Below, in pieces: positions 5,392-64,000 of a stretch of 64,000 nucleotides of DNA (position 1 is its first letter; the number at the start of each line of letters is the position of its first letter). Origin of the DNA: a virus. The notes under the pieces were generated by a model. The model did no database searches. It was not told where the DNA came from and saw nothing but the letters and a program-made list of their open reading frames with translations. The stretch covers positions 1 through 64,000 of the IMG/VR virus record IMGVR_UViG_3300031251_000002. One strand, written 5' to 3'. Position numbers and translations under genes: made by a program.

Positions 5392-5397
5392 AGTTTC

Positions 5398-5778: not shown

Positions 5779-5780
5779 CC

Positions 5781-17098: not shown

Positions 17099-19036
17099 AT
17101 GGCAGAAGATATCAAACTGAATATATTTCAGAAGGGTCTCCTAAAGCTCTTCAAGATGCGTCCGGAGGATCTCCCCGGTCATCGTGAAGGCGAGATGGAG
17201 ATGTCGTGGATTGAGTTCCTACGCTCAGGACTCGATCCATTTACCGGGTACGCGCAGATCAGTCAGGATCGAATCGTTCGCTACAACGATTACGATTTGA
17301 TGGACCAGTACAGCGATATTGCAACCGCGCTGGACATCTACGCTGAGGAGGCTTCACAGCCGGATCCCCGCAAGAAGCGGGTAGTCTGGGTGGACACTGA
17401 GAAGGCTGAGATCAAGGAAGAGGGCCGCAAGTGGCTGGCGATGATCAGCGCCGAGGACCGGGCATTCGCACTGGCGCGTAACGTGGCCAAGTACGGCGAT
17501 ACCTTTGAGTACAACCTGATGAACCAGAACGGTATCTACAACCTTCAGTTCATCCATCCGAGCCGCGTGAACCGTATCGAGTCAGACAAGCTGCTTGGTT
17601 ACCAGTGTGACGAGTTAGCGCGTCTCATGATGCGGACAGGCACACAGCAAGCCCCTGAGGGCCGCTTCTTCACGCCATGGGACTTCCTGCACTTCCGCAT
17701 CGAGGCATATGACCGAGAGACCATCTATGGTCGTAGCCTGATTGAGAACGTTCGCAAGACATGGAAAGAGCTTCAGATCCTTGAGACCATGATCGCTGTC
17801 TTCCGTGTTACCAAGAGCGTTCAGCGTAACGTCTTCATCGTAGACGTTTCCCAGTCCTCGCCACAGGAAGCACAGGGCATCCTTGAGAAGTGGCGGCAGC
17901 ACCTGCGTAAGCAGCAGTTCATTGATCCGGTGACTGGGGATTTCCGTGTTGATGCTCAGGCCATTACCCCGATGGAGGATCTCATCCTCCCCGTTCGTGG
18001 CGAAAACAACAAGACGCGAGTCGAGAAGCTCCAAGCGGATCCGGATATCGGCGCTATCGAGGATCTGCACTACTTCCGCGTCAAGCTCCGCACAGCGCTG
18101 GGTATCCCACAGAGCTACTTTGAACAGTCCTTGGAGAACACGGGCTGGAACAACAAGGAAGCGTTGGTCATGCAGGACCAGCGGTTCAGCCGCAAGATCA
18201 CGCGCATCCAGCGCTCCGTGAAGAGTGGGATGACCCGAGGGTTTGCTATCCACCTGACGCTCAAGGGAATCAAGTGGGAGCCGGGTGACTTCAAGATCGA
18301 GATGGCCCCGGTTAACCAGATCACCGAGCGCCTGAAGGAAGAGTGGTGGCTGCGTCGTGGTGAGCTATTGAATGCGCTGCTTCCAGTAGCCACGGTGGCC
18401 AATTTCGACCAGCAGGAGTGGAATGACCTGATCTGCAAGGAACTGCTCCCCCTTAGCCCGTCTGACCGGAAGAAGCTCCTGACCCCTCCACCCGAGCAGA
18501 TGGCCCAGCAAGCGGCTCTGGCGGGCGCAGGAGCGGCAAAGCCGGGTCAACCCGGAGCCAAGGGCGGTCAGTCTGGTGCGAAGGCTCCTAAGCCCGGTGC
18601 TGGGGGCAAGGTGGGTAAATTCTCAACCTTTGCCGAGCCGGATAAGGCCGAGGACACCATTTCGATGCTTTCGGACTTCTTCGCAGGACGCCCGGATATC
18701 CAGACTAGCGTTCGGTCCATCGTGGAAGGCATGGAGGAGCATCAGCTTTACGAGGTGACCAGCAAGGTCAAGGAGTTGACTGAGATCCGTGAGCTTATGG
18801 CCGAGGAGAAGCAGGTGCTTGAGTCCGATCTGGCTGACCTCAAGGGTGGTCTCAAAGAATCCGACATCAAGGCCATGAAGTCCTTCGCCGCTCCGGAGTT
18901 CAACAAGTTCCCGGTCTCCGTCTTCATGGGCGATAAGCAGATGAGCATCAACGAGAAGGTTGCCAAGCTGGAGAAGCGTGGGACCAACGAAGCGGTAATC
19001 AAGATGGACTATAAGCGGATTGACAGAAAGAGGTAA
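17099..19036 (+). CDS. portal protein (T4 gp20 type)
   Basis: 645 aa. D-L-M-D-Q-Y-S-D-I-A-T-A-L-D-I-Y-A-E-E-A-S near residue 67, then A-R-N-V-A-K-Y-G-D-T-F-E-Y and a P-W-D-F-L-H-F-R segment, match T4-like portals, which form the dodecameric ring for DNA entry and tail attachment. The last 200 residues include a Gly/Ala/Pro-rich linker and helices. Near the end, R-G-T-N-E-A resembles the repeated N-E-A motif of the 55245 protein, so 20 or fewer C-terminal residues might be removed by a prohead protease. Confidence 0.88.
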   Translation: MAEDIKLNIFQKGLLKLFKMRPEDLPGHREGEMEMSWIEFLRSGLDPFTGYAQISQDRIVRYNDYDLMDQYSDIATALDIYAEEASQPDPRKKRVVWVDTEKAEIKEEGRKWLAMISAEDRAFALARNVAKYGDTFEYNLMNQNGIYNLQFIHPSRVNRIESDKLLGYQCDELARLMMRTGTQQAPEGRFFTPWDFLHFRIEAYDRETIYGRSLIENVRKTWKELQILETMIAVFRVTKSVQRNVFIVDVSQSSPQEAQGILEKWRQHLRKQQFIDPVTGDFRVDAQAITPMEDLILPVRGENNKTRVEKLQADPDIGAIEDLHYFRVKLRTALGIPQSYFEQSLENTGWNNKEALVMQDQRFSRKITRIQRSVKSGMTRGFAIHLTLKGIKWEPGDFKIEMAPVNQITERLKEEWWLRRGELLNALLPVATVANFDQQEWNDLICKELLPLSPSDRKKLLTPPPEQMAQQAALAGAGAAKPGQPGAKGGQSGAKAPKPGAGGKVGKFSTFAEPDKAEDTISMLSDFFAGRPDIQTSVRSIVEGMEEHQLYEVTSKVKELTEIRELMAEEKQVLESDLADLKGGLKESDIKAMKSFAAPEFNKFPVSVFMGDKQMSINEKVAKLEKRGTNEAVIKMDYKRIDRKR

Positions 19037-22211: not shown

Positions 22212-22226
22212 ATTAACAAGGTAAGT

Positions 22227-22367: not shown

Positions 22368-22372
22368 CATTG

Positions 22373-22753: not shown

Positions 22754-22761
22754 GAGGTTCT

Positions 22762-22908: not shown

Positions 22909-22944
22909 CCAACAAAACGCGGAGGTAACCTGAGATGACACACA

Positions 22945-23190: not shown

Positions 23191-23387
23191 ACGACCCTGT
23201 TGACCCTAGTGGTTGTTACTTCTGTCTCAACAAGGCCAGCGTAACGGAGACATTGACCAAGGGCTTTGGTGATTGCCTAGATGGTACAATCGAGGAGTAC
23301 GAAATCCCCGTAGGCTGTCGGTGGCATGAAGGCCAAGTCGAGCGATTCTTGAAAGACTCAGGACTCGCAGGAGAAGACGATGATTAA
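23187..23387 (+). CDS. small Cys protein
   Basis: 66 aa from a TTG overlapping the previous stop (TTGA), with GAGGAG at good spacing. G-C-Y-F-C-L-N and later C and H-E could bind a metal. Acidic C-terminus. Confidence 0.65.
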   Translation: MNDPVDPSGCYFCLNKASVTETLTKGFGDCLDGTIEEYEIPVGCRWHEGQVERFLKDSGLAGEDDD

Positions 23388-29479: not shown

Positions 29480-29858
29480 GACTAAGAAGGCGAAGGAGCC
29501 GACACGCTTCAACGACATGGCGGTTCATTACTCCTACGTCACCGGATCGAAGTGCTTCTGTGGCGAGGAAGTAACCGGCACGGATCCACTGCCCGCGCAC
29601 AACTGCATCCAGACGCTCGATGAGCGGGTCGCCAAGCTTGAGGCTTTCGCCAAGGGCGCTTGTCAGTGTGGTTCCGGGTTGCCTTGTGACTTGCATAAGG
29701 TGTGGGCACCGAAGGACGCGCCAGTGAACACGAAGGCCGCACCAGATGATAGGCGCTGCTGGTGCCAGCACTTTGAGAGCAACCACATCAAGTCCGGTGC
29801 GGGAACTAACCTGTGTCGGTATTGCGATTGTCAAGGTTTCAGCGTAGTAGCGAAGTAG
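29460..29858 (+). CDS. zinc-module protein (CxCxH family)
   Basis: 132 aa. Three cysteine clusters: K-C-F-C-G-E-E, C-Q-C-G-S-G-L-P-C-D-L-H, and a final R-C-W-C-Q-H-F-E-S-N-H...C-R-Y-C-D-C-Q-G-F, which is the full CxCxH...H...C..C.C..F module also present at 10430, 55245 and 59804. A helical linker joins them. Role unknown. Confidence 0.75.
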   Translation: MPKESSKTKKAKEPTRFNDMAVHYSYVTGSKCFCGEEVTGTDPLPAHNCIQTLDERVAKLEAFAKGACQCGSGLPCDLHKVWAPKDAPVNTKAAPDDRRCWCQHFESNHIKSGAGTNLCRYCDCQGFSVVAK

Positions 29859-31838: not shown

Positions 31839-33165
31839 TCTTTGTTTGTTAGGACTCTTAACGTCAGTCTTAGGGGGGACGACTCTTCAGACGATTCCCT
31901 TTAGTACCTCTCCCTATAACCCCAACATGCAGCAGTCCTCTGATGCCGCGTATTCAGGCCGTTGGGTTATTCGGGGGCAGCAGTATGGCGTCTATGCCTT
32001 GAACGCCGACAACGGTACTTACAAGATGATTACCGGTGTTGGCAAGAATGATGGGGTAGCACCAGCAGCAAACATTTTCATTACTGGGGATTGTTGGCAG
32101 AGCTTTACCAGTTTGGCAGCGACTCCCGGTGTAGCGAAGTGGGTTGTCTGGATTGGGACTCCGGAGATGTGCGCTCCGTCCGGTGTGCCGGTCCCCGCTG
32201 AGTACATTCAAGTGGCGCGACTTGACGGTGGACAGGGGCTTCGTTGGGTCGGTCAGATCCACGCGCCTCTTGTTAATCGGCTCGCACATTTCATCTACAC
32301 GGCTGGCGACACAGTATGGGCACCGGAAGGGTTATACCCTCCGACGACATGGACGAAGTGTGATCTCAACGTTCTTGGTAGCTGCGTTTCGGGTCAGCCG
32401 AGTCCTGCCGCCCAAGCTCCGCCCCAGCCGAACATTGATGGGTACACGTATTCGCTTGTAGGCGGCGGGCCGCAGTTCCATTGGACGATGGTGCGAAGTG
32501 ATGTTCAGTTGCCAACCGCAACGCCTAACCTGACGCCGATTATCTCTGTTACCCCTTCTCGTACACCGACCAAGACGAAGACTGGGACGCCGGGGCCGTG
32601 TGCGCCTCCTGCTCCGTGTCCAGCGACTCAGACGCCTATCGGGACTAGGACTGCGACTCCGGTTCCCTCGCCTACGCCAGCAGCTTCTGGATGTGGCGGC
32701 GTGGACAAGTACACGCTCTGTCTTGGCGAGCGCTTCAAGGTCACGGCCCAGTGGGTCTCGACTTCGGGATCGGGCGCGGGGACGGCTGTTACCCTGACCG
32801 ACGACACTGGAACCTTCTGGTTCTTCAGCGCTGGGAACTACGAGTTGATGGTCAAGGTGCTGGCTGGCTGCTCGACCAACTCCCACTACTGGGTCTTTGC
32901 GGCGGGCCTGACGAACGTCAATGTCACCCTGACCGTGACGGATACTCAGACCGGGGCCATTAAAACGTACGTTAATCCGCAGGGGACGGCCTACCAGCCC
33001 ATTCAGGACACGACGGCATTCCAGTGCCCTGCCGCCCCCGCTCGGGCTTTAAAAGCCAGCGTAGAGAAGAAACCGTTGTCAAAAATCGGGAAGGGCGTTA
33101 CCATCACGCTCATGCTTCTGGCAGCGGCGGCTATCGGGATGATGACGAGAGAGTTTCGTGGCTGA
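31819..33165 (+). CDS. large secreted protein with Thr-Pro linker
   Basis: 448 aa. A signal peptide is followed by a globular domain, a Thr-Pro-rich linker (residues about 235-290) and a C-terminal domain: G-G-V-D-K-Y-T-L-C-L-G-E-R-F-K-V-T-A-Q-W, D-D-T-G-T-F-W-F-F, E-L-M-V-K-V-L-A-G-C, H-Y-W-V-F-A-A-G-L-T-N-V. I associate this domain with secreted proteins of Acidobacteriota and similar soil bacteria. A C-terminal hydrophobic span with R-E-F-R-G could be a membrane anchor. Probably captured from a host surface protein. Confidence 0.78.
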   Translation: MKRLTLSLCLLGLLTSVLGGTTLQTIPFSTSPYNPNMQQSSDAAYSGRWVIRGQQYGVYALNADNGTYKMITGVGKNDGVAPAANIFITGDCWQSFTSLAATPGVAKWVVWIGTPEMCAPSGVPVPAEYIQVARLDGGQGLRWVGQIHAPLVNRLAHFIYTAGDTVWAPEGLYPPTTWTKCDLNVLGSCVSGQPSPAAQAPPQPNIDGYTYSLVGGGPQFHWTMVRSDVQLPTATPNLTPIISVTPSRTPTKTKTGTPGPCAPPAPCPATQTPIGTRTATPVPSPTPAASGCGGVDKYTLCLGERFKVTAQWVSTSGSGAGTAVTLTDDTGTFWFFSAGNYELMVKVLAGCSTNSHYWVFAAGLTNVNVTLTVTDTQTGAIKTYVNPQGTAYQPIQDTTAFQCPAAPARALKASVEKKPLSKIGKGVTITLMLLAAAAIGMMTREFRG

Positions 33166-33571
33166 CATGGCTAAGTTGGCAATCGAGGAACGTGTTACCC
33201 GAATCGAAGAGGCGCTGAGAGCGTTGGAGTTGGAAACGAAGCCCCACTGGCCGGGGTGTGGCTGCTCCCTCCGCGCTTTCGCGGGTAAGCCGCCAGAGCC
33301 TCCCCTCCCGCCCCTCTGCCCTGCGTGTGGACGTTGGACTTGGCGGGTAGGTGGTTACTGCACCCGTCATTGTGAGAGCAAAGGTCCAGCGAAGACTTGC
33401 TCGCATGGCATATACGAGTGGGCTTGCACTCAGTCGCATCAGCCTCCGTACGCCGAATGCACCACCTGTAAGTCAGTAACCTGCTCCGGAAGTGGTTGCT
33501 GGCATGGCTTGTCTACGCACCTTCCCGGTGAAGGTTGCACGGTGAAGGGCTGTGGTTGTGAGCGCCCATGA
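33158..33571 (+). CDS. Cys/His-rich multi-zinc protein
   Basis: 137 aa, GTG start with GAGAGAG upstream. At least 15 cysteines: G-C-G-C-S, C-P-A-C-G-R-W, C-T-R-H-C, C-S-H-G-I-Y-E-W-A-C, C-T-T-C-K and a final C-W-H-G-L...C-T-V-K-G-C-G-C-E. Repeating zinc knuckles related to the window-wide zinc module. Role unknown. Confidence 0.72.
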   Translation: MADMAKLAIEERVTRIEEALRALELETKPHWPGCGCSLRAFAGKPPEPPLPPLCPACGRWTWRVGGYCTRHCESKGPAKTCSHGIYEWACTQSHQPPYAECTTCKSVTCSGSGCWHGLSTHLPGEGCTVKGCGCERP

Positions 33572-38518: not shown

Positions 38519-38596
38519 CCTCCCAAACCCGGTCTCTGGAAGATTCTTCAATAGTCCGTCTTTGATGTAAGGGCGGAAGCTTGCTCAGGAGTGCCA

Positions 38597-41500
38597 ATGA
38601 AAAAGCTGCTCGGATTGATCGTGCTGGTTGCGACTATGGGGATAGCGTGTTCGGCTCGCCCTCAGCCCCAGCAAGCGAGCGATAAGCTGCCGCCCCTCCC
38701 CAAGCCACCCATCGCGCTGCCGGTTGGCGACGAGGCGGTTGTTACGCCTCCTGTCATTGCCGCAGCGACCGAAGCCCTTGAGACTCTTCCGCGCACAACT
38801 CCCCTTCCTATTTCTGGGCGCTCCTTTGCCAAGTTCTCGACTGCCTCTGCTCCGATTGGCAATACCTACCTCGCGGCTGTGAACGGATCGGGCAACCTTT
38901 GTACGATTGATGCCCCGTGTAGTCGAGCCTACGTTTTTGGTAGTGGTACTCAGATTCACGGGGATGACGTTGTGTATTTCCGTGGTGGTATCTACACCGG
39001 TCTCAACGTCCAACTGACCGCCTCGGGCACCCTTGGCCATCCAATCATCTTTCGTAACTATCAGGATGGCACCTATTTGGGTGAACGAGTAATCTTCCGT
39101 GGTGGTGCTGCCGTTCAGAACGATGTCATCCTCAACAACACTGGTAGCTACAACTGGGTCTGGGGGATTGAGTTCGACCAGTTGCCGACCAACACCGTTC
39201 CTGCTGGCTCAGGAGAAACGAAGTCAGGTCGCGTGTCTTGGTATCAGGGATCGTGGCCTAGCGATATTGCGCTTTCGGATGCAATCAACTCCCTGCCACA
39301 AAGCGGTGCGTACGCTGCCCGCGATGGCCAGAAGTACATCAACATCTACTGCCACGACGTTCGTCAGTGCATCTCTAGCTGGGTAGAGACGACGAATCAG
39401 GAAATCTCAGGCATGCTGGCGATCAATGTCGGCTGGGACGAAGAGCCGGATCCTCTGTGCGGAACTGGCGGCGTCCACCCGGCATGCTTCACGCCCGCTC
39501 GCGGACATGGCTTTCCGGAGTACGTTCAGAACCAGAAGAACTACAGCGGTAATCCGCCCGGAAGCGTGTCGCCCGCTACGCCTTCTACGAAGTACACGCT
39601 GGGCAGTATCGGCCTTGGCGGCTTCACGGGCTGCTTCAAGCTCTATGGCTCAGGCGATCAGAACGAAGAGCAGAACTGGGTCGCTCGACAGAACACGACG
39701 GCTGACTGTGGAGCGCTGTCCACCTATGGCTTGCAGGATAACCTGCTGTTCGGAGGTGGTGGGGCCAATGACACCTACACCGTTGATCAGAACTACGAGT
39801 ACAACTGCTGTACCTTCAATGCTGGTCCGGGTGGTGCATGGGGACCGAACGACAACGGCATCGGTACTTGCACCAATGTCAACATCACTAACAACTTCGT
39901 AGGTTCGCCCTCGACATTTGGTAGTATTGGTGGAACGTCCTGCCACACCCCGACTACGCTGACAGGTAACTCGTTCATGGGTAACACGGTCAACCTGAAC
40001 CGTTCCCTGTACCCGTCCAATACCTACTACTCCTCGACTCCCGCTCAGCAGTTTGTCTTTGTCCGTGCGGATCCGTATGAACCGGGTCGCTGCACGATCA
40101 CAGTCTTCAACTACACGCTGGCTTCGACCGCGCCTGTCGATCTCTCGCAGTGCGGAATGGGCGATGGAACTTCTTGGCAGATTCGTGATGCCTACCGCTT
40201 CCATGGCGATGACAACAACGACACTGGTAACGTTGTCTATGCGGCAGGGACGTACTCGGCAGCGTCTCCAATCCTGAACCTGTCCATGGCAACGGGCACC
40301 CCGGTTGCTCCTGCGAACTGGTCCACGAAACCGGCTGCTGAGACATGGCATGCGCTGACGACTCGCGGCCCGCGCTTTGGTGTCTTCATCCTGCTGCCCT
40401 CGCCTGTGCTTGGCAATAGCTGGTACGCAGCCCCTGCCAACGGTGGCGCTTGCAGCACGATGAACGGCTCTACGTCCGGTACGGGATTGATCAACTGCCC
40501 GTGGGAGCTTCAGACGGCTCTCAACCAGACCTCGATCCATCCGGGCGATACGCTTTGGCTGCGCGGTGGAACCTATTCAGGGACGTATGTCAGCAACCTG
40601 TTGGGCAATACGAGTCAGCCGATTATGGTCAAGCAGTACCCCGGTGAGACGGTGAAGCTCGACGGCGGCACTACGTATGATTTCGGTCTCAACATCTGTG
40701 GTGGCTACACTTGGTTCTGGGATTTTGAAGTCTTCTCGTCATCGACGGATCGGACTTCGGACAACGAGGGTCCGTGGCCGACTGGCCTGAACCGTAGCAA
40801 TGGCGTGACTGGCTCTTGCCCGCCGAATGACTCTCAGAGTGGCGCTATCAAGGGCATCAAGCTCATTCACATGAAGATCCATGACATGGCTGGTGGAGCA
40901 AGCCCGTTCTCTCTGTTCAGCGATTTTGAGATGTACGGGACGACGATTTACAACACCGGATGGGCTTCACCGACAAACATCGGTCACGCGCATAACGTTT
41001 ACATGCAGAATGTCTTTGGTTACAAGCTGATTCAGGACAACCTGTTCTTCGGCGGGTACGCGGAAGACATGCAGCTTTACGGAACTGGTGCGGCATCGCT
41101 CAATGGCGTAACGATTGACGCGAACATCTATGCGGACTCCAGCACCTACGTTGTTAATCAGGGGCGCGAGTTGACGGTTGGTGGAACGTCCGACCTGAAT
41201 AACCTGACGGTTTCCAACAACCTGTTCTACCGTGGACCGAACGGAGACGCGGGTACGTCAGACTGGTACATGGGCTACAACTCGGCATGTCCCGGCGCTT
41301 CTATCACTGGCAACTTCGTTGGAACGGTTACGCTGTGGGGCAGCAACTGCACTGCACCGGCTACCGTTTCTGGTAACACGTTCATGGGTACTTTCAGCGG
41401 CCACTCGCAGTGGGCTGGCAATACCTTCTTGAACAACGTCTACCCGACGAGCGGCTTCAACATCTTCCCGAAGCCATCGAAGTACGAGGCGAACCGTGGG

Positions 41501-42712
41501 TGGATGGTTGTCTACAACTGGGCGAACGCCTCATCGGTCAACCTTGACCTGTCTCCGATTCTCGCACCGGGTACACCGTACACGGTCAAGAACGCGCTTA
41601 ACCCGCCTCAGGCTCCGATTGCGACAGGCACATACACTGGCGGCACGGTTAACATCTTGACTGGACCGTTCCCGATTGCTCCTGCGATTGGTGGTATCCC
41701 GGTTGCTCCGGGAGCGCCGTTCTCGCTTGGCCCGACGTTCAACGTCTTTGAGATCATCCCGACTGGGGGAAGCAGCGGAACGCCGACCCCGACACCGACT
41801 TCAGCCTTTACTCCAACTCCGACGAGGACGCCGACCCCGGTTCCTCCAACGAATACGCCGTCTCCGACTCCAACGCCCACGGCTACTCGTACACCGACCG
41901 CGACTCCGACAAAGGTTCCTACAGCAACCCCGACACCGGGCGGGCCGTGGCACACGTTCCTGAATTCGCCTGTAGTGTCTGCGCCGATGAACATCTCTGG
42001 CGGCTTCGTGAACGCGCCTACGGCTGAGACGGGTACGGCGGTCTATACGTTCACTACGCCGTACACTTCCACGGTCACCTTCTGGGTCTATGCAAATGAT
42101 GCGCTTGACACCGCAGACAGCTTCTACGCCAAGGTGGACTCTGGTTCTGAGGACATCTGGGATGTGGCTGGTAACGGGCCTTGGGGCAACTTCTTCCGCT
42201 GGGATCAGTCCAACGGACGCAACGGCACTGGCGTTGCTTTGACGCTCAACCCGCGTACGTGGGTAATCTCTGGGGCTGGAACGCACACGCTGATTCTCCG
42301 TGCCCGTGAAGCGGGAACGCAGATCAGTGTCGGCATCTATGTCTCGGCTGACCCGTCCTTCTCGCCGCTTACTCCGACTGCGACACCGACGTTCACTCCG
42401 TCGAACACGCCGACCAAGACGGCCACGCCGACCGCTACTCCGACGAAGACTCCAACTCCGACGAGTACGCCTACCAACACGCCGACTCGGACTAACACCC
42501 CGACGAATACACCGACTCGGACCTACACGCCGACTAACACCCCGACGTTTACTCCGTCGAACACTCCGACTGCGACGAATACCTTTACTCCGTCGAACAC
42601 GCCTACGAACACGCCTACGCCTACTCGTACGGCTACGCCGGGGTCTGTCTGTGTAACCATGACGTTCACTAACACCCCGACGTTTACTCCGACCCCGACA
42701 CCGACTCCATGA
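38597..42712 (+). CDS. giant secreted lipoprotein, beta-helix with Thr-Pro linkers
   Basis: 1371 aa. A lipoprotein-type signal (T-M-G-I-A-C, Cys18) opens the protein. Two right-handed parallel beta-helix modules follow (about 75-490 and 590-1020), both starting with a cue like C-(T/S)...G-D-(D/T)-(V/L)-(V/W)...R-G-G-(I/T)-Y and rich in G-N and N-N turns. After a Thr-Pro linker comes a C-terminal beta-sandwich (W-H-T-F...T-V-T-F-W-V-Y-A-N-D-A), then a second long Thr-Pro tail. It could be a glycan-binding or depolymerising surface protein. The signal and lipobox are odd for a tail fibre and suggest export to the host surface. Confidence 0.8.
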   Translation: MKKLLGLIVLVATMGIACSARPQPQQASDKLPPLPKPPIALPVGDEAVVTPPVIAAATEALETLPRTTPLPISGRSFAKFSTASAPIGNTYLAAVNGSGNLCTIDAPCSRAYVFGSGTQIHGDDVVYFRGGIYTGLNVQLTASGTLGHPIIFRNYQDGTYLGERVIFRGGAAVQNDVILNNTGSYNWVWGIEFDQLPTNTVPAGSGETKSGRVSWYQGSWPSDIALSDAINSLPQSGAYAARDGQKYINIYCHDVRQCISSWVETTNQEISGMLAINVGWDEEPDPLCGTGGVHPACFTPARGHGFPEYVQNQKNYSGNPPGSVSPATPSTKYTLGSIGLGGFTGCFKLYGSGDQNEEQNWVARQNTTADCGALSTYGLQDNLLFGGGGANDTYTVDQNYEYNCCTFNAGPGGAWGPNDNGIGTCTNVNITNNFVGSPSTFGSIGGTSCHTPTTLTGNSFMGNTVNLNRSLYPSNTYYSSTPAQQFVFVRADPYEPGRCTITVFNYTLASTAPVDLSQCGMGDGTSWQIRDAYRFHGDDNNDTGNVVYAAGTYSAASPILNLSMATGTPVAPANWSTKPAAETWHALTTRGPRFGVFILLPSPVLGNSWYAAPANGGACSTMNGSTSGTGLINCPWELQTALNQTSIHPGDTLWLRGGTYSGTYVSNLLGNTSQPIMVKQYPGETVKLDGGTTYDFGLNICGGYTWFWDFEVFSSSTDRTSDNEGPWPTGLNRSNGVTGSCPPNDSQSGAIKGIKLIHMKIHDMAGGASPFSLFSDFEMYGTTIYNTGWASPTNIGHAHNVYMQNVFGYKLIQDNLFFGGYAEDMQLYGTGAASLNGVTIDANIYADSSTYVVNQGRELTVGGTSDLNNLTVSNNLFYRGPNGDAGTSDWYMGYNSACPGASITGNFVGTVTLWGSNCTAPATVSGNTFMGTFSGHSQWAGNTFLNNVYPTSGFNIFPKPSKYEANRGWMVVYNWANASSVNLDLSPILAPGTPYTVKNALNPPQAPIATGTYTGGTVNILTGPFPIAPAIGGIPVAPGAPFSLGPTFNVFEIIPTGGSSGTPTPTPTSAFTPTPTRTPTPVPPTNTPSPTPTPTATRTPTATPTKVPTATPTPGGPWHTFLNSPVVSAPMNISGGFVNAPTAETGTAVYTFTTPYTSTVTFWVYANDALDTADSFYAKVDSGSEDIWDVAGNGPWGNFFRWDQSNGRNGTGVALTLNPRTWVISGAGTHTLILRAREAGTQISVGIYVSADPSFSPLTPTATPTFTPSNTPTKTATPTATPTKTPTPTSTPTNTPTRTNTPTNTPTRTYTPTNTPTFTPSNTPTATNTFTPSNTPTNTPTPTRTATPGSVCVTMTFTNTPTFTPTPTPTP

Positions 42713-47919: not shown

Positions 47920-48244
47920 CCAGTTTTGGACTATCGAGTTCACCGTACCCTGCCCGGTCTGTCACCAGACGCAGATTTTCCAAGCCCAGACTCATGCCTT
48001 CGGGGAGATTGGAAGCTGTACCAACTACTACAAGACGGGCGATCTCGTAGAAGAGCTTGTGGGTAACCCAGAAGACGTTTTGCAGATAGACGACTTTGTG
48101 GTAACCTGCAAGGCTTGCAACACATGGTTGATGGCCGGTGCCGTCTTTGAGAACGGTCGGTTCATGGGGATCTACGAGTTCGGGATAGACAAGGGGATTG
48201 GTGATGCCGACAAGTGGGATGAGGGTTCTGACGATGGGGAGTGA
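47912..48244 (+). CDS. Cys-containing hypothetical protein
   Basis: 110 aa. P-C-P-V-C-H-Q-T and T-C-K-A-C-N-T-W form a ribbon; the acidic C-terminus is G/D-rich. Overlaps the previous gene by 8 bases. Unknown. Confidence 0.7.
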   Translation: MCSQFWTIEFTVPCPVCHQTQIFQAQTHAFGEIGSCTNYYKTGDLVEELVGNPEDVLQIDDFVVTCKACNTWLMAGAVFENGRFMGIYEFGIDKGIGDADKWDEGSDDGE

Positions 48245-48425
48245 GTTCACCCCGCCGGGATACGTGCGGAAGCTGTTCTGCCTCCCTTGCGCGGCTGGTG
48301 AGCATGATCTGAAGTACCACGGTGAGCTTGGTTGCTTGCGGGTAACCGATGCGATTCCGATGGACTGGCCCTGCAAGTGCGAGGAACGAAACTACGCCCG
48401 CAAGACGCAGAGGAGGATCATATGA
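48234..48425 (+). CDS. zinc-module small protein
   Basis: 63 aa. F-C-L-P-C-A-A-G-E-H-D-L-K-Y-H-G-E-L-G-C...W-P-C-K-C-E-E-R is a variant of the CxxC...H...H...C...CxC module found across the window. Basic C-terminus. Unknown. Confidence 0.68.
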   Translation: MGSEFTPPGYVRKLFCLPCAAGEHDLKYHGELGCLRVTDAIPMDWPCKCEERNYARKTQRRII

Positions 48426-48997: not shown

Positions 48998-50215
<1,218 letters not shown>

Positions 50216-53449: not shown

Positions 53450-53667
53450 CGAAATTTCAGGAAGCTGAGGCTCGCTGGAATCGTGTTACCGAGGAAGCTC
53501 TAGCGAAGCGGAAAGCAATGTTCTTGGCCGGGGTTTCTTTTGAGCTAGTTCAGGCCGAGTGGAAGCGAACCATCCCAGCGGAGTTGGATCTCTGGTTGTC
53601 GGCGTTGGCTGAAGAGAATCCATGGATGGCTCCCGCGCTGACTTGGAGGCCAGATGACCCTGATTGA
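53446..53667 (+). CDS. small helical protein
   Basis: 73 aa, Glu/Trp-rich helix (A-E-A-R-W-N-R-V-T-E-E-A-L). ATGA overlap with the previous gene. Unknown. Confidence 0.66.
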   Translation: MTKFQEAEARWNRVTEEALAKRKAMFLAGVSFELVQAEWKRTIPAELDLWLSALAEENPWMAPALTWRPDDPD

Positions 53668-54484
53668 GATGCTGGAGCATCGGGCTGCAAGCTTCTATCA
53701 GGGCGTCCTAGAGGGCAAGGCTCTGGCCACCCACGCGGCCCCGTCCAATACTGCCCGTCAGGCCCTAGCCCTAAAGGCCCGTAATTTCCTTCGTACGGAC
53801 CCTTATGGGCGCAAGGCCAGCCCGTCCTACCACGCAGACATGGAGGCGCAGTTCAAGGCCCTCCAGACGGCCTTCAGAGCCAAATTACGGGGTCTGTACC
53901 GGAACTGGGAGAAGACTGGGAACATTGACGCCTTCAAAGCCCAGTCCGAGAAGGTTTTCAAGGACCACTACACCAAGGTCTTCCAGCTAGGCATGACCTC
54001 TGGCGACCTGAGCCGTCACACCAATCCCGGTGCCCGCCGAGTCCGAGCGGCGCTGGTGACGCCCGCTGATCGGGCTTGGATCGCCTCCGCCGCCAAGGAG
54101 GAACTCGGCTTCTGGAAGAAGTTCCTGTCGGATCTGCGGTTCGGTCGGGTCGGCGGGGATCCATTCAAGCGGATTGACATGTACGTGAAGTCCGCTGAGG
54201 CTCCGTATCACGCGGGCAAGGTTGTAGCTCTGCCCCACCAGACAGGCATTCGCTGGCGCTACAGCCCAATCGTGGAGAAGCACTGCGCGGGTTGCCTGTA
54301 CTTGGCCAGCCAAGGGCCGTACACGAAAGAGTCCCTTCCCTGCACCCCACGGGACGGGTCAACCCTCTGCCGATTCAACTGCAAATGCGAACTTGATTAC
54401 TTCGACATCACAGCCGAGGAGTATGTTAAGCTCTCCCGAAAGAGTAAGACATGGCTACTGAGCAGAGTCAAAAGTCGCAGGTAA
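53654..54484 (+). CDS. MuF-like head morphogenesis protein
   Basis: 276 aa. Helical N-terminal half, then Y-S-P-I-V-E-K-H-C-A-G-C-L-Y-L-A-S-Q-G-P-Y...L-P-C-T-P-R-D-G-S-T-L-C-R-F-N-C-K-C-E-L, the cysteine-rich C-terminal signature of phage Mu-F / minor head proteins, which bind near the portal. That the portal lies about 35 kb away is unusual. Confidence 0.78.
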   Translation: MTLIEMLEHRAASFYQGVLEGKALATHAAPSNTARQALALKARNFLRTDPYGRKASPSYHADMEAQFKALQTAFRAKLRGLYRNWEKTGNIDAFKAQSEKVFKDHYTKVFQLGMTSGDLSRHTNPGARRVRAALVTPADRAWIASAAKEELGFWKKFLSDLRFGRVGGDPFKRIDMYVKSAEAPYHAGKVVALPHQTGIRWRYSPIVEKHCAGCLYLASQGPYTKESLPCTPRDGSTLCRFNCKCELDYFDITAEEYVKLSRKSKTWLLSRVKSRR

Positions 54485-55244: not shown

Positions 55245-58200
55245 ATGAGTAGAGAGAACCTTCGCGGTGTCATCAGCGGTCTGCCGAAGACCCTCATTGA
55301 CACGCCTGTTACCCCAGACGCCCAACCCCTGATGGAAGTCAAACCATCTGACTTCAAGCCTTGCGCTCGCTGCAACGGTACGGGTAAGGTAGACGGCAAG
55401 CAGTGTGTTCTCTGTCAGGCCAAGGGGACGATGCTCCACCGGCCTGTTCCCGAGTCGAAGTCCATTCTCTCTGAGGTCTGTCAGGCATGCGGTGGTCACG
55501 GCGCACAGGGGCTGAAGACCTGTGTAATCTGTCAGGGCGAGCCATTCATGGTTAACTTCACGAACGAAGCTGTGGATCCTCTCTGCTCATGTCGGCATCC
55601 ATTTAGTAAGCATACGAGCCGTCCCGGTGATATCGCTGGTCACGCGGGCGCATGTACTAGCAATCCAACCATCCCACCGAAGCCCGGATTTGGGTGTCGC
55701 TGTCAATACTTTTCCTTGAAGCCGAACGAGCCTGATCCTTGGACTATCGAGAAACAGTTCCATGAAGCAGTTCTTCCTCATAAATATGATGTTAGCTGCC
55801 AGTGCGGTTGGTCGTGTGTTGGAAAGCACAGCGTTCTTAGTGATGCGACCGAGTGTGCCTATCATCATGAGGGATCAGGATCAGGCCACAACTGTGAGAT
55901 TGAAGATAAGGGCACGGGTCTGACCTTCAACTCTATGGGCAGCATCACTGATTACTACGAGTCCGCCGAACCTCCCGATACGCAGCCTGAGTTGACCTGT
56001 AAGAAGTGCGATAAGCGCTTTTCTCCCGATGACGCGGAGTGGAAAGCAGCCCAGCGCGGCGACCCCTTCGTTTGTGCCGAGTGCAAGGCCAAGAAGAAGA
56101 CGAACGAAGCTGTGAATGAGATGGCTGATGCTATCAAGGCCAAGATCAAGGCGCAGCTTCAGGGCAAATACCCTGATGATGTTCTCAAGAAGGCTTTAGC
56201 TAGGACAGAGCGCTGGCAAAAGGCCGCATACGGCAGCAAGGACTGGTCAAGTCATCAGGATGAGTCAGGCTACGACAACCTCGTTGGGACTGTAGAACTG
56301 TACGCTGATGAGATTACCAAAGAGCAGGCTGGCAAGACGGGTCCAACTGCTAACCAGAGCCAGTTTGGTATCTGGTCGCCTAACGTTAGAAACCGCAAGG
56401 GTGAAGCTGAGGGTACGAGCTACAAGGGCTTCTGGCTTGACCAAGACAGTTCAAATCCGCACACAGGCTATCCCGGTGGGATGTGGTACGCGCTGACCAA
56501 GAGTGGCGTACCTGTTACAGACGGTGCTCCGTCCATCGAAGCTCTCAAGAAAGAGATCGACAAGATTGTGGCTCATGGCGCGGATGCGAACCGTTGCCCG
56601 TGTTGCGAGACTGTCGAGAAAGTCCTGTACGGCGTGAAGAACGGCGACGAGGACTGGCAGGAGCAGCTTCTTCTCAGTGGTCCCAACGCGACAGACGCGA
56701 ACATCGAGAAGGTCAAACAGCTAGCGGCCAAGGACGGCTTTGGGAAGTTTCGCGTTGCTTCGATTGACCTGAGCAAGCCGCCCGACTTTACCAAGGCTCT
56801 GCGGAAGAACGAGGCTGATGACCATTGTCGTGTCCGTGGGACCGACGGTGAGACACGGATCTGCGGCGAGAGGAAGCCCTGTCCCCTTCACGACGACGAA
56901 GGCCGGAAGGGCGAAGCCAACTCCTATCGCCACCCCAAGACCGGCCAGTTCGACGCCAAGGAAGGCGACTGCTGGGCGTGTGAGGGATCAGGGACGAAGG
57001 AAGACGGACAGGGCCGCTGCGCGATGTGCGATGGTGGCAAGAAGCTCCCCAACCAAGGTAACAACCTGAAGCGAAACGAGGGGCGGGACTACTCAGCAAA
57101 GGTTACTGGCCCGAGCGCAGTTGCTTTGAAGCGTCTTGCGACAGAAGCCGCGAAGCACCAACTCACATCCGAGCAGCAGGGTGCGGTGAACATGGTTCAG
57201 CGGGATACAGTTTCTATCCTCGCACGGCCCAAGCTCGCTCTAGAGATTAAGATGGTGTTGGATTTCGCTATCCTGCATCAGCCATTGAAGCAGGGCGAAT
57301 CTGACGACCGTTGTGGTTACTGCGGTCACACGCCGGTTGCTCACGATCCGAAGATGAGTCTCGGTTCTGGCCTCTGCACGGGTGGCCTTGGCTGCGACTG
57401 CCGTCAGTTCCAAAAGGGCAGTGCGTGGGTCGAAGCGACCGGTACGGCCATGGTCGCGGGCGCGGAGCCACAGGCTGATGTGGCCTTCAAGGGCGACGAT
57501 CTAAAGGGCGATAGCGATTACGGAGACCGCGACGAGGATTGGTCGATTACCAACACGACCGATCTTCCGCGAAACGAGGGCACAGTGGACGATCTACCAG
57601 TTAACATCAAGCGCATGTGGAAGAACGATGAGTTCCATTGTCCAATCTGTGACCTGAGCATTGGCAAGAACCTGCTGGGTGACATACCTCACGCCCTAGC
57701 GGCTCAGCACCTGTCACAAGCCCACCCCGGCGACAAGGCGTCCATCCTAGCGGGCAACTTTGAGCCAAAGATGGGATCTGCGGCCTCGTACATCAAAATG
57801 GAAGCTGAGGACAAGAAGATCGTTTTCAAGTGTCAGGAGTGCGGCAAGAAGCTCCCCGGTACGGCCCGCAAATGCTCCAAGTGCGGCTCTGAGGACATTG
57901 ATCTAGCTGAAGCCTACATGGACAACACCAAATGCGAGACTTGTGACCACGCCTCACGGTTGCACAACGAAGGCGAAGGCCGCTGCTTTGCCGAAGTGAA
58001 CGATGAGGGCGGTGGGACTGATTGCCGATGCAAGAAGTTCGTTCGCGGTAAGAACGAGGCTGGAGACTACTGCCCGAAGTGCGACCACGCGATGAAGGAT
58101 CATTCGGCCAATGGTTGCGAAGTCTGTGCGGATCACGGGGAGAAGTGCAACGTAGTTGATGAGGCCAACACTTGGTTGATGGCCCGCTCCTCGTCCCAGC

Positions 58201-59807
58201 CGAAGCTGGCCGAGCCGACCTTTACCCACGCGGACGCTATCGAGGCGTGGCAGAACTTCCGCATGCCCGCTGATATTGAGCGCCGCAAGCAGCTACAGAA
58301 GTTCTGGCTCCAGCAGCATCAGGACTTCTCCGTGGGCGGTAGTCAGTTCAACGACCCGGATGCTGAGGCACATCGTTACTACTACAAGCTGTTACTTCAG
58401 ACGTTGGGCGTCAAGGTAGCTGAAGAGGTTACACGTTGGACTGAAACTACGTCCGGCTCGGTGCATAGACCCGGCATTGACACCTATACTGGTTATAGCG
58501 AAATGAACGAAGCCATGCAGTGCTTCTGCGGCCACTCCAAGACGGCGCATGAGGATGGCGTAGGCAAGTGTAGCAGCAGCGGGAACACCTCTGCGGGTGC
58601 GTGTCTCTGCAAGAGCTACAGGAATCGTCCTGTCAAGGAAGCCTTCCCCAACGACGGCCCCGGTGAGGACATGGGCACAGACATGCCTGAGATGGGCGAC
58701 GACGAGTGGACACGCAACGTGATTACTGGCGACGGCACCGGCTCGACAGTCGGCGTCGAGGATAAGAATGAGGCCGAAGAGCTTCGATGGAAGGCTGGAG
58801 ATATCGTGATAATTCGTTCGCATAACAGCGAACCGGGTCACGGTCTTTCCTATTCGGCTGCTGCCATCGTTGCTTTCGAGGATGGCGTTGCTGGCGGATG
58901 GGATGTGTACGATGGAGCGAGCTTGGATGCGCCGACTTTGGAAACGAGCTTCTACGGCTTCAGCGTACTCCGTGTAAGGCGGGGGACGGCGGGGAAGAAT
59001 GAGGCCGAAGAGGTTACTTCTCCTCTCAACACCTATCTCGCTGTTCACAGCAAGAAGGGCAAGATCCAACTCAAGGCTGCGACGACCTATCAAGCTCAGC
59101 AGCTAGCTGCCAAGCAGATGGGTGTCCCTAAGCCGTTTGAGATTTCGATCCACCTGATTGGCAAAGCAGACGGTACACCCGTTCCCGTCCATGTCGAAAG
59201 CACTAATACTACGCCCTATGTTAAGCCGTTACAGGCTTTCTCCTATCGCGTAGGTCAGAAGTACGACTCCGCATACAACTCAAAGCTGGCACAGGCAGTC
59301 GGTCGGATCGTGGTTCCGGCCAGCCATATCTTTGAACCTGATAGCGTGGCGGATGCGAACGACTGCGATCTCTACACGACGATGATCGCCTTGCGGCTGA
59401 AGGAGCTTGGTTACTTACTGCTAAGCCCACAGGACAAGGCGGAGTGGGAGACTCTTTCAACGAAATTCATGCAGGACGTTCAGGCATACGCTGGACACTA
59501 CGATAAGCATGAGTCAATCGCGCCAGACGATGGGACGCGCATCTCGTCTGACTGGGGCGACATCTGGGGCGACCCGACCAAGAGCGGGATTACTCCTCGC
59601 CATGAGACGGCTGAGGCGGTCCTCGCGTCGATCTCCCTGCTCCAGTCTGCTTTTGTAGAGGGTGTTGAGACACTAACCATGTGCCACAACTGCGGTCATG
59701 CGGAGCATTTCCACCTCCTTGGAGCAGCCCTTGGCGCACAAGGGTTTGCTGATAATTCAACAGCTTGTTACGTAGATGGCTGCACTTGCGGGATGTTTAC
59801 AGCATGA
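55245..59807 (+). CDS. giant zinc-module protein with repeated N-E-(A/G) sites
   Basis: 1520 aa. It is built of segments that each carry one or more zinc motifs (CxxCxGxG, CxCxH...H...C.C..F or CxxC ribbons). Nine N-E-(A/G) sites, mostly preceded by K, R or T, end at residues 108, 288, 523, 612, 778, 938, 1089, 1176 and 1253; segments are 77-267 aa. Zinc motifs often start 3-5 residues after a site. T4-type prohead proteases cut after x-x-E before A/G/S, so this could be a polyprotein or multi-domain scaffold processed during head maturation. Otherwise it could be a bead-on-string nucleic-acid-binding protein. No signal peptide. Confidence 0.72.
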   Translation: MSRENLRGVISGLPKTLIDTPVTPDAQPLMEVKPSDFKPCARCNGTGKVDGKQCVLCQAKGTMLHRPVPESKSILSEVCQACGGHGAQGLKTCVICQGEPFMVNFTNEAVDPLCSCRHPFSKHTSRPGDIAGHAGACTSNPTIPPKPGFGCRCQYFSLKPNEPDPWTIEKQFHEAVLPHKYDVSCQCGWSCVGKHSVLSDATECAYHHEGSGSGHNCEIEDKGTGLTFNSMGSITDYYESAEPPDTQPELTCKKCDKRFSPDDAEWKAAQRGDPFVCAECKAKKKTNEAVNEMADAIKAKIKAQLQGKYPDDVLKKALARTERWQKAAYGSKDWSSHQDESGYDNLVGTVELYADEITKEQAGKTGPTANQSQFGIWSPNVRNRKGEAEGTSYKGFWLDQDSSNPHTGYPGGMWYALTKSGVPVTDGAPSIEALKKEIDKIVAHGADANRCPCCETVEKVLYGVKNGDEDWQEQLLLSGPNATDANIEKVKQLAAKDGFGKFRVASIDLSKPPDFTKALRKNEADDHCRVRGTDGETRICGERKPCPLHDDEGRKGEANSYRHPKTGQFDAKEGDCWACEGSGTKEDGQGRCAMCDGGKKLPNQGNNLKRNEGRDYSAKVTGPSAVALKRLATEAAKHQLTSEQQGAVNMVQRDTVSILARPKLALEIKMVLDFAILHQPLKQGESDDRCGYCGHTPVAHDPKMSLGSGLCTGGLGCDCRQFQKGSAWVEATGTAMVAGAEPQADVAFKGDDLKGDSDYGDRDEDWSITNTTDLPRNEGTVDDLPVNIKRMWKNDEFHCPICDLSIGKNLLGDIPHALAAQHLSQAHPGDKASILAGNFEPKMGSAASYIKMEAEDKKIVFKCQECGKKLPGTARKCSKCGSEDIDLAEAYMDNTKCETCDHASRLHNEGEGRCFAEVNDEGGGTDCRCKKFVRGKNEAGDYCPKCDHAMKDHSANGCEVCADHGEKCNVVDEANTWLMARSSSQPKLAEPTFTHADAIEAWQNFRMPADIERRKQLQKFWLQQHQDFSVGGSQFNDPDAEAHRYYYKLLLQTLGVKVAEEVTRWTETTSGSVHRPGIDTYTGYSEMNEAMQCFCGHSKTAHEDGVGKCSSSGNTSAGACLCKSYRNRPVKEAFPNDGPGEDMGTDMPEMGDDEWTRNVITGDGTGSTVGVEDKNEAEELRWKAGDIVIIRSHNSEPGHGLSYSAAAIVAFEDGVAGGWDVYDGASLDAPTLETSFYGFSVLRVRRGTAGKNEAEEVTSPLNTYLAVHSKKGKIQLKAATTYQAQQLAAKQMGVPKPFEISIHLIGKADGTPVPVHVESTNTTPYVKPLQAFSYRVGQKYDSAYNSKLAQAVGRIVVPASHIFEPDSVADANDCDLYTTMIALRLKELGYLLLSPQDKAEWETLSTKFMQDVQAYAGHYDKHESIAPDDGTRISSDWGDIWGDPTKSGITPRHETAEAVLASISLLQSAFVEGVETLTMCHNCGHAEHFHLLGAALGAQGFADNSTACYVDGCTCGMFTA

Positions 59808-61930
59808 AGCTGGTGGAAGCATTTTTCGTAGGGACCAAGCCCGATGGATCCAAGGAAGTTTTCCAAGGCTCCCGGAACCCGACGACAGAAACGCATCCCC
59901 GGTTTAAGTCCATCGCTGGCCCGTTCAGCGAAGAAGAGGCTAAGAAAATGGCTGGCGACGAAAAGAAAGAAGCCCTCAAGCGAGAACTGATGGGAGAGCT
60001 TTCAGATGGTTACGTATCCTGTACCAAGTGTGGTGTGGTTCCCGAGAAAAGCTGTCCGCACAGTGCGCCCTTTAAGAGCGTGACAAAAAAGAACGAGTCC
60101 TCTGGCGTAGTGATCACCGCGCCCGGTGCTGGTGACACTCCTGAGACTCTCCTGAAGGCGATCCCGCGCACGATGGATGCTTCTGCGTTCATCAGCCACA
60201 TCGGTGATCTCGTCGTTGCTGGCAAGGGTGCTGCGCCGACTGACATGAAGTTGACTGGCGAGCCAATTACTCCGAGCGACGTTACCATGATGGCTCAGTG
60301 CAAGATTGGCGAAGCTGAGAATGTCTTTGACAAACATGCACTGAAGATTGCTAAAGACACCCTGAAGATTGCTAAAGACACCCTGAAGATGCATCCAGCG
60401 GTGGTAGGCGTCATGGGCGGCACCACGCACGAAGGTGCCCATCAGACTATCAAGCGCATCACTGGCAAAGACCAGTCCTGCACCCAAGACGGCTGTCCTT
60501 ACAAGCAGACCGGGAAGACCGAATCCCGCGAACTGCGCGAAGGCTCCAGCATCTGCAACTGTGGGGACTCTGAGAACGACCACTACAAGGATCCGCCGTC
60601 TTCTTGCAGCCGCTGTGCTTGCGACTCGTTTGAGTCCAACAGCCTCCCGGATAAGGCGAAGGCTCCTGCTGCAAAGGACAAACCAGTGGACAAGAAGGAA
60701 TCCCTCAAGCGCGAGCTTTTGGGTGAGGATAACTTTGTAACATGCGTTGGGTGCGGCAAAGAAACTCTGTCGCGTGACGCTGCTAATCTTAATGACCGTG
60801 GAAAGTGGGCGAGTCCGCCAGAGGGAAAGCCACATTGCCGGTCTTGCGATATGTATGGGCCACCTGACAATGGTGGTAAGTCGTCTCCCGGTGTCGCTGG
60901 TTATACGAGCCGGGAAGCCGGGTCGGGACCGGCTAAAAAGAATGAGTCGGATGCCTACGACCGCGATTTCACCTGCAAGATGTGCGGTAAGACTGACGAC
61001 GGCCCGGAGTTCGTAGTTGCTGGCAAGCACCCGGTTTGCAAGGCATGCAAAGAGAAGAAGGATCCAGACAAGCCGATTAAGCTGCGCGGGGAATCCACAA
61101 GTAACGATAAAAACTGCCAAGCGTGTGGTGCTTCCGGTGCGTCCCCAAGGGATAGAGGCAACGGTCGAGTTCTCAACCTCTGCTCAACCTGCACTTCTAA
61201 GAAGGCCGAAGGCGCGGTCTTTGCATCCAATGCTAGCCTACATAAGAAGTACCCCGGTCCTGCGGCTGACGCTCAGTCTGACAAAGCTCGAAAGTCCGTA
61301 CCGAACACAGTTTGCAATTTCTGCACTAACCCGGTGACGCCACCGGCAACCGTTTGTGACACTTGCTATGACAAGTTCAACAAGAAGAAGGAATCTAAGG
61401 AGAAACCTATGAAGACCAAGCCAGTTGGCGAGCAGTTTCATGCTCTGGCCAACGCTGCCATCAAGATGATGGTTAGCATTCAGGAGTCCCCGCGAGCGGG
61501 GCGGGTGACCCCGCTACTGGCGCGGTTGGACAAGGTAGCGAACAAGGCAGCGGATGCTGTCGCCGCGAAGATGATGGGGGAGAACCAAGGTTACGAGTTC
61601 CCCGCGCTCTTCAAGGAGTTGAAGGAGATCCACGCCAAGCTCAGGACCGCAATGGGCGAAGGCTGGCACATGTATCCGGCTCTCGGGCTGGGCAATGACT
61701 TCAACATGGGTGGCGATGGTCGCGAGATGTCGCCAGAGCTTTCTGGTGTTGATCCGGTCGAGGGCATGGTTGCTGCGGCAGTCCCGCTCGACGCTGGTGC
61801 CAACAAGATGGAGAACGTTAACAAGTACGTTGACAGTCTCCTGAAGGAAGACGATGACGAGAAGTGCGATACCTGTGGTGGTGTTGACAAGCACGACAGG
61901 AACAAGCACGACGCGGATTTCAAAGGCTAA
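59804..61930 (+). CDS. giant zinc-module protein 2, paralogous to 55245
   Basis: 708 aa. ATG overlaps the stop of the 1520-aa gene. It contains K-N-E-S (ends 98 and 381), K-T-E-S (240), K-K-E-A (56) and K-K-E-S (299), the latter two followed by L-K-R-E-L-(M/L)-G-E, so segments repeat. Zinc motifs (C-T-K-C, C-N-C-G...C-S-R-C-A-C, C-V-G-C-G-K, C-K-M-C, C-Q-A-C, C-N-F-C...C-D-T-C) occur throughout. The last 150 residues are helical and acidic. Likely expressed and processed together with its neighbour. Confidence 0.7.
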   Translation: MKLVEAFFVGTKPDGSKEVFQGSRNPTTETHPRFKSIAGPFSEEEAKKMAGDEKKEALKRELMGELSDGYVSCTKCGVVPEKSCPHSAPFKSVTKKNESSGVVITAPGAGDTPETLLKAIPRTMDASAFISHIGDLVVAGKGAAPTDMKLTGEPITPSDVTMMAQCKIGEAENVFDKHALKIAKDTLKIAKDTLKMHPAVVGVMGGTTHEGAHQTIKRITGKDQSCTQDGCPYKQTGKTESRELREGSSICNCGDSENDHYKDPPSSCSRCACDSFESNSLPDKAKAPAAKDKPVDKKESLKRELLGEDNFVTCVGCGKETLSRDAANLNDRGKWASPPEGKPHCRSCDMYGPPDNGGKSSPGVAGYTSREAGSGPAKKNESDAYDRDFTCKMCGKTDDGPEFVVAGKHPVCKACKEKKDPDKPIKLRGESTSNDKNCQACGASGASPRDRGNGRVLNLCSTCTSKKAEGAVFASNASLHKKYPGPAADAQSDKARKSVPNTVCNFCTNPVTPPATVCDTCYDKFNKKKESKEKPMKTKPVGEQFHALANAAIKMMVSIQESPRAGRVTPLLARLDKVANKAADAVAAKMMGENQGYEFPALFKELKEIHAKLRTAMGEGWHMYPALGLGNDFNMGGDGREMSPELSGVDPVEGMVAAAVPLDAGANKMENVNKYVDSLLKEDDDEKCDTCGGVDKHDRNKHDADFKG
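60341..60390 (+). repeat. 21-bp in-frame tandem repeat
   Basis: CTGAAGATTGCTAAAGACACC twice (60341-60361, 60362-60382) plus an 8-base third start, encoding repeated L-K-I-A-K-D-T. Exact identity implies a recent slippage duplication. Confidence 0.9.
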
Positions 61931-63038: not shown

Positions 63039-63431
63039 ATGGACGCCAAGGCACGAGACAAGGCAGAGAAGCTCATCCGGCTCTCCGCTTCTAATCACCA
63101 GAACGAAGCCGATATGGCTGCGCGCAACGCATGCAAGATCATTCGTGAGAATGGCTTTAGCCTGCATGAGCCAGCCCCGACACGTTCTGCGCCACAGGTC
63201 GTCCGTGAAGTGGTTCGGCAGGTTGTCCGCGTCCCAGACCCCGAGAGCTATGATCGTGGCTATCGAACTGGTTACAGTGAGGGAACGAAGCAGCTTCCCC
63301 CGGTGCCAGAGGTTGATATAGAGAAAGAGCGGGCCGCGTACATGGAGGCCGCACAAGCGGATTCGCGCAAGAAGATGCGCGTTGTCATGGAGCTAATGGC
63401 CCTGTTACGGGAAGAGGACAAGTACACGTAA
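63039..63431 (+). CDS. DUF2786-like protein
   Basis: 130 aa. The N-terminus A-R-D-K-A-E-K-L-I-R-L-S-A-S-N-H-Q-N-E-A-D-M-A-A-R-N-A-C-K-I-I-R-E-N-G matches the DUF2786 helical domain of phage and bacterial proteins; the rest is helical and charged. Unknown. Confidence 0.7.
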   Translation: MDAKARDKAEKLIRLSASNHQNEADMAARNACKIIRENGFSLHEPAPTRSAPQVVREVVRQVVRVPDPESYDRGYRTGYSEGTKQLPPVPEVDIEKERAAYMEAAQADSRKKMRVVMELMALLREEDKYT

Positions 63432-64000
63432 TGGATAGCGCAACACTCTGGTATCTCTATCAGAACTACGGATCGAAGGAAGGCCCTCCGATGAGGGCGA
63501 AGCCTCAGATCAAGCAAGGCGTAGAAGCTGATATGAAGAAGGGCGAGTTCACCATCGAGCGATCTGGTGAGACGCCTGACGGCCAGCAGGTTGTGGTGGC
63601 CACTGTTGACCAGCACGTTGCTTTGATCGTGGACAAAGAGATCAAGGACATGTGGGACATCACCAAGCGCGATGCCGCGCTGGCTGTCTTTGATCGCATG
63701 ATTAAGGTCGGCGCTGAGAAGGTTCGTCCGTACTCGGTAGACGCCAAGCCGGTGGACGAAGCACTCCTTCGGAAAGACGACTTGGAGTTGCTGAAGCACC
63801 TCTGGACGACTGCCAAAGAGAGCAACAACGAGTACGAAAAACACCCGGATATCGAGCATGCGGATAAGGTGATTGTTAACCTGAAGTCCCTAGTAGCCGC
63901 GTGTCAGTCGTACGGTTCGTCAGAGTGGCTGAACGCTGCTCAGACGATCCTCGGTCGTTTGGACAGGCAGACAATGATGGCCGTGGACAACCCCCGTTCG
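63431..64000 (+). CDS. acidic helical protein, 3' end missing
   Basis: The first 190 codons are inside the window without a stop. Charged, mostly helical, with W-Y-L-Y-Q-N-Y-G-S-K-E near the start and T-V-D-Q-H-V-A-L-I-V-D-K-E in the middle. Head or tail assembly genes may follow downstream. Not recognised. Confidence 0.65.
   Translation, partial: MDSATLWYLYQNYGSKEGPPMRAKPQIKQGVEADMKKGEFTIERSGETPDGQQVVVATVDQHVALIVDKEIKDMWDITKRDAALAVFDRMIKVGAEKVRPYSVDAKPVDEALLRKDDLELLKHLWTTAKESNNEYEKHPDIEHADKVIVNLKSLVAACQSYGSSEWLNAAQTILGRLDRQTMMAVDNPRS

Follow-up and report, generated by a model that had tools for sequence, protein, structure and literature searches.

The window analysed here, 64,000 nucleotides long, comprises bases 1–64,000 of the 166,450-bp virus record IMGVR_UViG_3300031251_000002. 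Two genes on its plus strand encode proteins of 1520 aa (protein A, 55245..59807) and 708 aa (protein B, 59804..61930). In both, several unrelated domains are split by repeated protease-like sites with glutamate ahead of Ala, Gly or Ser (E-[AGS]), the arrangement that defines a polyprotein. The best explanation, and a fairly probable one, is that A and B are a head polyprotein processed by the prohead protease. Such phages probably make a precursor that is cut up by their head protease, giving several proteins within the virus particle. This reading draws on the site statistics, the gene neighbourhood, the family of the protease and a positional counterpart in a related contig (G015). The two genes are coupled: the start ATG of B at 59804 overlaps the stop codon of A as ATGA, and a sequence-only reading of the window had described both ORFs (open reading frames) correctly.

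Repeated NE[AGS] sites in protein A

Protein A contains about 15 zinc modules together with non-zinc domains. Its commonest tripeptide is NEA, and NE[AGS] occurs ten times (approximately 0.93 expected; none of 20,000 composition shuffles reached ten). Among the 186 ORFs of at least 100 aa across the 166,450-bp record, A is the most extreme for this motif (Poisson p = 6e-8). The tenth copy (aa 908–910, LHNEGEGRC) sits inside a zinc knuckle and therefore nine boundary sites remain, the number given in the sequence-only reading. They divide A into pieces of 108, 180, 235, 89, 166, 160, 151, 87, 77 and 267 aa, in agreement with the segment range of 77–267 aa proposed earlier.

All nine sites are on the plus strand (a slash marks the candidate cleavage position). 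Sites 1 (E108, 55563..55571) and 2 (E288, 56103..56111) read TNE/A and have the same 15-nt DNA. Site 3 (KNE/A, E523, 56808..56816) is followed four residues later by the start of a Cys cluster. Sites 4 (E612, 57075..57083) and 5 (E778, 57573..57581) read RNE/G, and site 6 (KNE/A, E938, 58053..58061) lies in the 13-residue gap that separates two zinc modules. Site 7 (MNE/A, E1089, 58506..58514) is the sole NE site of A with a hydrophobic residue at P3, two positions ahead of the glutamate at P1. Sites 8 (E1176, 58767..58775) and 9 (E1253, 58998..59006) read KNE/A and share an 18-nt DNA identity. The claim that a zinc module often begins 3–5 residues past a site applies to four of the nine and fails for the rest.

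Additionally, five sites of the classical T4 type, [LIVM]xE[AGS], are present in A (after E70, E889, E973, E1089 and E1132), each between modules. LAE/A (after E889, 57903..57914) separates two zinc modules, whereas VDE/A (after E973, 58155..58166) and VKE/A (after E1132, 58632..58643) directly follow a zinc module; these three are also on the plus strand.

DnaJ-type CxxCxGxG and zinc-ribbon Pfam matches fall within the segments of A. The 77-aa segment between sites 8 and 9 (58773..59003, plus strand) is free of Cys and SH3-like by inspection only, the 235-aa fragment has a single small Cys cluster, and domains without zinc motifs occur among the segments. Thus, "about ten small zinc proteins", as anticipated earlier, was an overstatement. 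No effector enzyme domain or zincin peptidase was matched in A or B by Pfam, PHROG or PADLOC.

Some pairs of NE sites in A share more identical DNA than synonymous shuffling predicts (p = 0.03), and of the exact repeats in A that reach 13 nt, four in all, three are NE sites. Because some sites are paired DNA-level copies, the element has in part spread by duplication. It could be a recombination seam, i.e. a short direct repeat at borders where modules are gained, lost or shuffled, and both the exact repeats and the paired codons would fit this. Such a role is nevertheless improbable. Other NE copies have the same residues with different codons, and separate pairs use separate codons, so the protein sequence itself has been kept. 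Furthermore, seams need no E-[AGS] ending, and the E-[AGS] of the other linkers would be left unexplained.

Sites in the gaps between zinc modules

Zinc modules (approximately 15 in A and eight in B) were called by hand from their cysteines, and residues were shuffled within each inter-module gap. E-[AGS] is found in all 14 gaps of A (8.7 after within-gap shuffling, p = 0.0004) and in all seven gaps of B (4.4, p = 0.02). Even gaps of 13–17 residues contain it. Glutamate at P1 followed by A/G/S at P1' is accordingly present in all 21 inter-zinc gaps. The excess stems mainly from NE[AGS] in A and from K-x-E-[AGS] in B; the control dipeptides D[AGS], K[AGS], [AGS]E and E[KRDTQN] are not enriched. 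The presence of E-[AGS] in every gap, the DNA-level site pairs and the Cys-poor fragments go beyond the sequence-only reading.

Alternatively, A and B could be intact multi-domain zinc proteins, bead-on-a-string binders of nucleic acid or protein similar to polyvalent effectors, with E-[AGS] belonging to a flexible linker. There is precedent for large head proteins that stay uncut, such as the N4 virion RNA polymerase (PMC5512222). However, the within-gap shuffles control for linker composition and the other dipeptides lack enrichment, and this alternative is considered unlikely.

In protein B, NE[AGS] occurs twice against 0.5 expected (p = 0.09 taken alone). Both copies, at E98 (60092..60100) and E381 (60941..60949), read KKNE/S, and the earlier count of two KNES sites is confirmed. 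K-x-E-[AGS], however, is present in six of the seven inter-zinc gaps (0.9 in shuffles, p < 0.0002). L-V-E/A is found at residues 3–6. Two copies of a peptide flanked by E sites, KKE/ALKRELMGE (59963..59998) and KKE/SLKRELLGE (60692..60727), are similar to capsid-targeting peptides (a resemblance only), and each immediately precedes a zinc module. All four features are on the plus strand. B also contains three 21-nt tandem copies (IAKDTLK; 60327–60389), two of them near-exact.

Head genes of the same phage

A protease-scaffold fusion gene whose protease belongs to the gp21 family (record 71925–73889; Peptidase_S77, 2.3e-23; head maturation protease phrog_207, 2e-46) and a gene for a gp23-type major capsid protein (MCP; record 73905–75314, match 8e-68) form a T4-type head-maturation block 10–12 kb downstream of A and B. 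A T4-type (gp20-like) portal protein of 645 aa is encoded on the plus strand at 17099..19036 (Portal_T4, 2.4e-53). Since the gp20-like portal, gp21-family protease and gp23-type MCP occur in one genome, the phage is assigned by sequence to the T4-like phages. It is distant from cultured phages; the best cultured capsid proteins are approximately 39% identical to its MCP.

Counterparts in related phages

Capsid-protein searches yielded more than 100 related contigs. No homologue of A or B could be detected in any of them, but several carry multi-zinc proteins near the protease. Zinc-zinc linkers of 8–60 aa in related contigs were compared by position. Where the protein is encoded no more than 20 kb upstream of the protease, 16 of 17 contain E-[AGS], compared with five of 28 elsewhere (p = 8e-7, with incomplete independence among linkers from the same protein). 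With the present genome removed the numbers are 9/10 and 5/28 (p = 1e-4). Multi-zinc proteins outside the head cluster are thus mostly devoid of sites, which argues against A and B being intact binders with ordinary linkers. One contig (G014) has two neighbouring zinc proteins. The first has E-[AGS] in every automatically defined gap and the second carries KKNE/S and GENE/S.

G015 is a 140-kb T4-like contig, nominally binned with a Nitrosotalea genome. Upstream of its prohead protease an overlapping pair of giant ORFs (L233/L234, 2275 and 580 aa; G015:C17 15978–24532) resembles A and B in arrangement, with E/[SGA] at domain borders. In contrast to A and B, its cargo consists of SH3-like repeats, GNAT and DUF5661 and not of zinc modules, and there is no sequence similarity. 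[LIVM]xE[AGS] occurs 27 times in the 2275-aa ORF (7.9 expected, p = 9e-8) and five times in the 580-aa ORF (1.6 expected). A domain of about 100 aa occurs 13 times in the pair, with 21% identity among the copies, whereas the eight-residue boundary KEEPL[DEG]E/[SG], a T4-type L-x-E site, is 77% identical. Over 12 aligned copies the only invariant columns are E, P and E of the boundary. Tandem duplication accounts for the repeated boundary, but not for the boundary alone resisting divergence. That the motif is far better conserved than the domains is again difficult to reconcile with intact proteins.

The AlphaFold model of one G015 unit is confident (pLDDT 85) and places the boundary site in a loose tail; a fold search of the unit gave weak SH3-like matches only (E > 0.01). 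The GNAT match adjoins the downstream side of one site and the DUF5661 match stops at another. No homologues of the 580-aa protein were found in the phage collection and no further EEPL-type strings in viral scans. With sites fitting the T4 rule, the pair looks as a protease-punctuated polyprotein should, and confidence in the polyprotein reading is higher for G015 than for A and B.

A third case is a 538-aa head-cluster protein encoded behind the capsid gene of another phage (L168 13004–14620; G018 21713–23329). NE[AGS] occurs eight times in this protein (0.86 expected), the best value among 941 ORFs. P3 is not fixed at these sites (L, A, V, K, M, F, L and K). The protein has Cys clusters and is unrelated to A and B; its N-terminus (MKNNFAHRIISSLNE/S) resembles a T4 capsid-targeting peptide. 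The capsid protein of the same phage has ALNE/ATQPSDV immediately ahead of the conserved fold. Homologues of the 538-aa protein were absent from the phage collection, and viral scans hit only the L168 record itself. The free-P3 form x-N-E/[AGS] therefore recurs in a multi-module head-cluster protein of another phage.

Fit to the specificity of the prohead protease

Proteases of this type recognize P3-x-E, with L/I at P3 in T4, S/A/G in phiKZ and A in SPN3US, and those characterised select P3, not P2 (PMC5694885, PMC9026906). In the scaffold of the present phage, LIVM is 2.86-fold enriched at P3 of E-[AGS], and the V/L/I sites correspond to the T4 rule; in 16 related scaffolds the enrichment is 2.2-fold. 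Within this genome [LIVM]xE[AGS] enrichment peaks in the protease-scaffold gene itself.

The selection of P3 and not P2 by characterised enzymes is one of several points that weigh against processing of A and B by this protease. P3 at the NE sites of A is K, T, R and once M, LIVM at P3 of A sites is at 0.82-fold, and [LIVM]xE[AGS] in A is at chance level (five against 4.3 expected). The P3 mismatch is the chief objection to the motif as first worded. The T4-type nature claimed for the sites thus stands as regards the gp21-family protease and an E-[AGS] in every gap, and falls short at P3, where one of the nine boundary NE sites conforms. For the gap test, module limits were drawn manually, and the choice of E-[AGS] was made with the T4 rule known. 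Megablast, tblastn and peptide-pattern scans found no homologues of A or B, and an AlphaFold prediction of A residues 853–1520 without alignment (pLDDT 34) was not used. The portal does have TNE/A 15 residues from its C-terminus (RGTNEA at aa 630 of 645, as noticed before), but NE[AGS] is absent at this position in all ten relatives, one of which has LISE/S; the portal site carries little weight because it is not conserved.

The break with the P3 rule of the phage's own scaffold favours intact zinc proteins. It would also fit cleavage of A and B by another glutamate-specific protease of host or phage, since the NE motif departs from the scaffold-derived consensus. No such enzyme was seen here, although no systematic search was made, and the strings are linked to the prohead protease both by their place in the genome and by the relatives; this option is very improbable. 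For the polyprotein reading, the S77 protease, MCP and portal in the genome and the G015 pair with its T4-type sites provide indirect support, and the exact NE motif is the weak part. Either the protease also accepts x-N-E, or the other E-[AGS] of the linkers are the true cuts, or the element is a mere linker.

MCP N-termini, considered as a test of NE specificity, show several candidate sites, none common to all. Marine gp21-type proteases (L028–L091) have a conserved K-N, often as KNE[SAG], between the catalytic domain and the C-terminal tail. As an auto-cleavage site this motif was rejected: K-N is kept more often than E, so it is no clean proof of cleavage.

Neighbouring genes and other features

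A 276-aa MuF-like minor head protein with a weak VG15 match is encoded shortly upstream of A (53654..54484, plus strand). By eye, its C-terminal Cys motif is common to the 685-aa relative in G014. In that contig the MuF-like gene (107119–109176) and the gene of a 979-aa portal (103809–106748) contain long insertions that appear intein-like by eye. Downstream of B, the window ends within a 481-aa ORF (record 63431–64876; 63431..64000, plus strand) that has a zinc ribbon at its C-terminus and five [LIVM]xE[AGS] sites. Small free-standing ORFs with the A-type zinc module CxCxH...CxCxxF are found at 29460–29858, 33158–33571 and 48198–48425 of the window and at 67185–67589 of the record.

Twenty tRNA genes on one strand are located at the record start (window 152–6201). 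A 1373-aa ORF (38591–42712) has long TPTPT tracts and a 396-aa ORF (49025–50215) has collagen-like GPP repeats.

Discussion

A model is proposed for the co-assembly, cleavage, packaging or retention and ejection of A and B. The proteins would be made from coupled head-cluster genes as precursors of internal head proteins and would enter the prohead core together with the scaffold; the KKE/[AS]LKREL[ML]GE peptides of B may act here, as they resemble targeting peptides. During maturation the gp21-type protease would cut after E and before A/G/S in linkers predicted to be flexible, as modelled in the G015 relative. The released small proteins, mostly zinc modules and some other folds, would remain with the DNA inside the head, and fragments may be ejected into the host. 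A broader proposal can be made tentatively: a group of T4-like phages may use head polyproteins, giant precursors with zinc proteins here and SH3-like and enzyme domains in the relative, whose modules the phage's own prohead protease would free within the prohead to provide changeable ejected cargo; in the present phage the protease would also accept x-N-E/[AGS], an undescribed P2-based specificity.

Trimmed internal head proteins and multi-domain "polyvalent" head proteins are already known (PMC5512222). As in T4, an S77-family protease that cuts after E before A/G/S is encoded in the same genome, and T4 internal head proteins (IPI–III, Alt) have short targeting peptides with such a site at their end. 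In T4 Alt, cleavage takes place close to each terminus (ITE-6, LTE-619; PMC5694885). T4 substrates lose propeptides or are shredded, however, and none is reported to give rise to several folded proteins in succession; P3 is mostly K/T/R here, with N at P2. A diverged homologue of gp21 likewise cleaves many head proteins behind P3-x-E in phiKZ-like phages and SPN3US, and in SPN3US every cleavage other than that of the protease itself takes off an N-terminal propeptide (PMC10052503). Polyvalent proteins (Iyer et al. 2017, PMC5512222) are similarly large and combine unrelated domains in a mosaic; packaging and injection have been proposed for them, and processing for some. Their proposed processing is by built-in zincin metallopeptidases, whereas a separate prohead protease and repeated sites are found here. 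The literature searched (subscription papers and preprints were outside the search) contained no example of a phage head polyprotein from which many folded products are cut.

Polyproteins are standard in RNA viruses, and the head protease of tailed phages is known for propeptide trimming and scaffold destruction. The site-by-site prediction is open to mass spectrometry. If it holds, phage heads could be loaded by a route not seen before, with one precursor giving rise to many folded cargo proteins. Rapid change in the set of cargo proteins, with targeting and processing left as they are, would then be accounted for.

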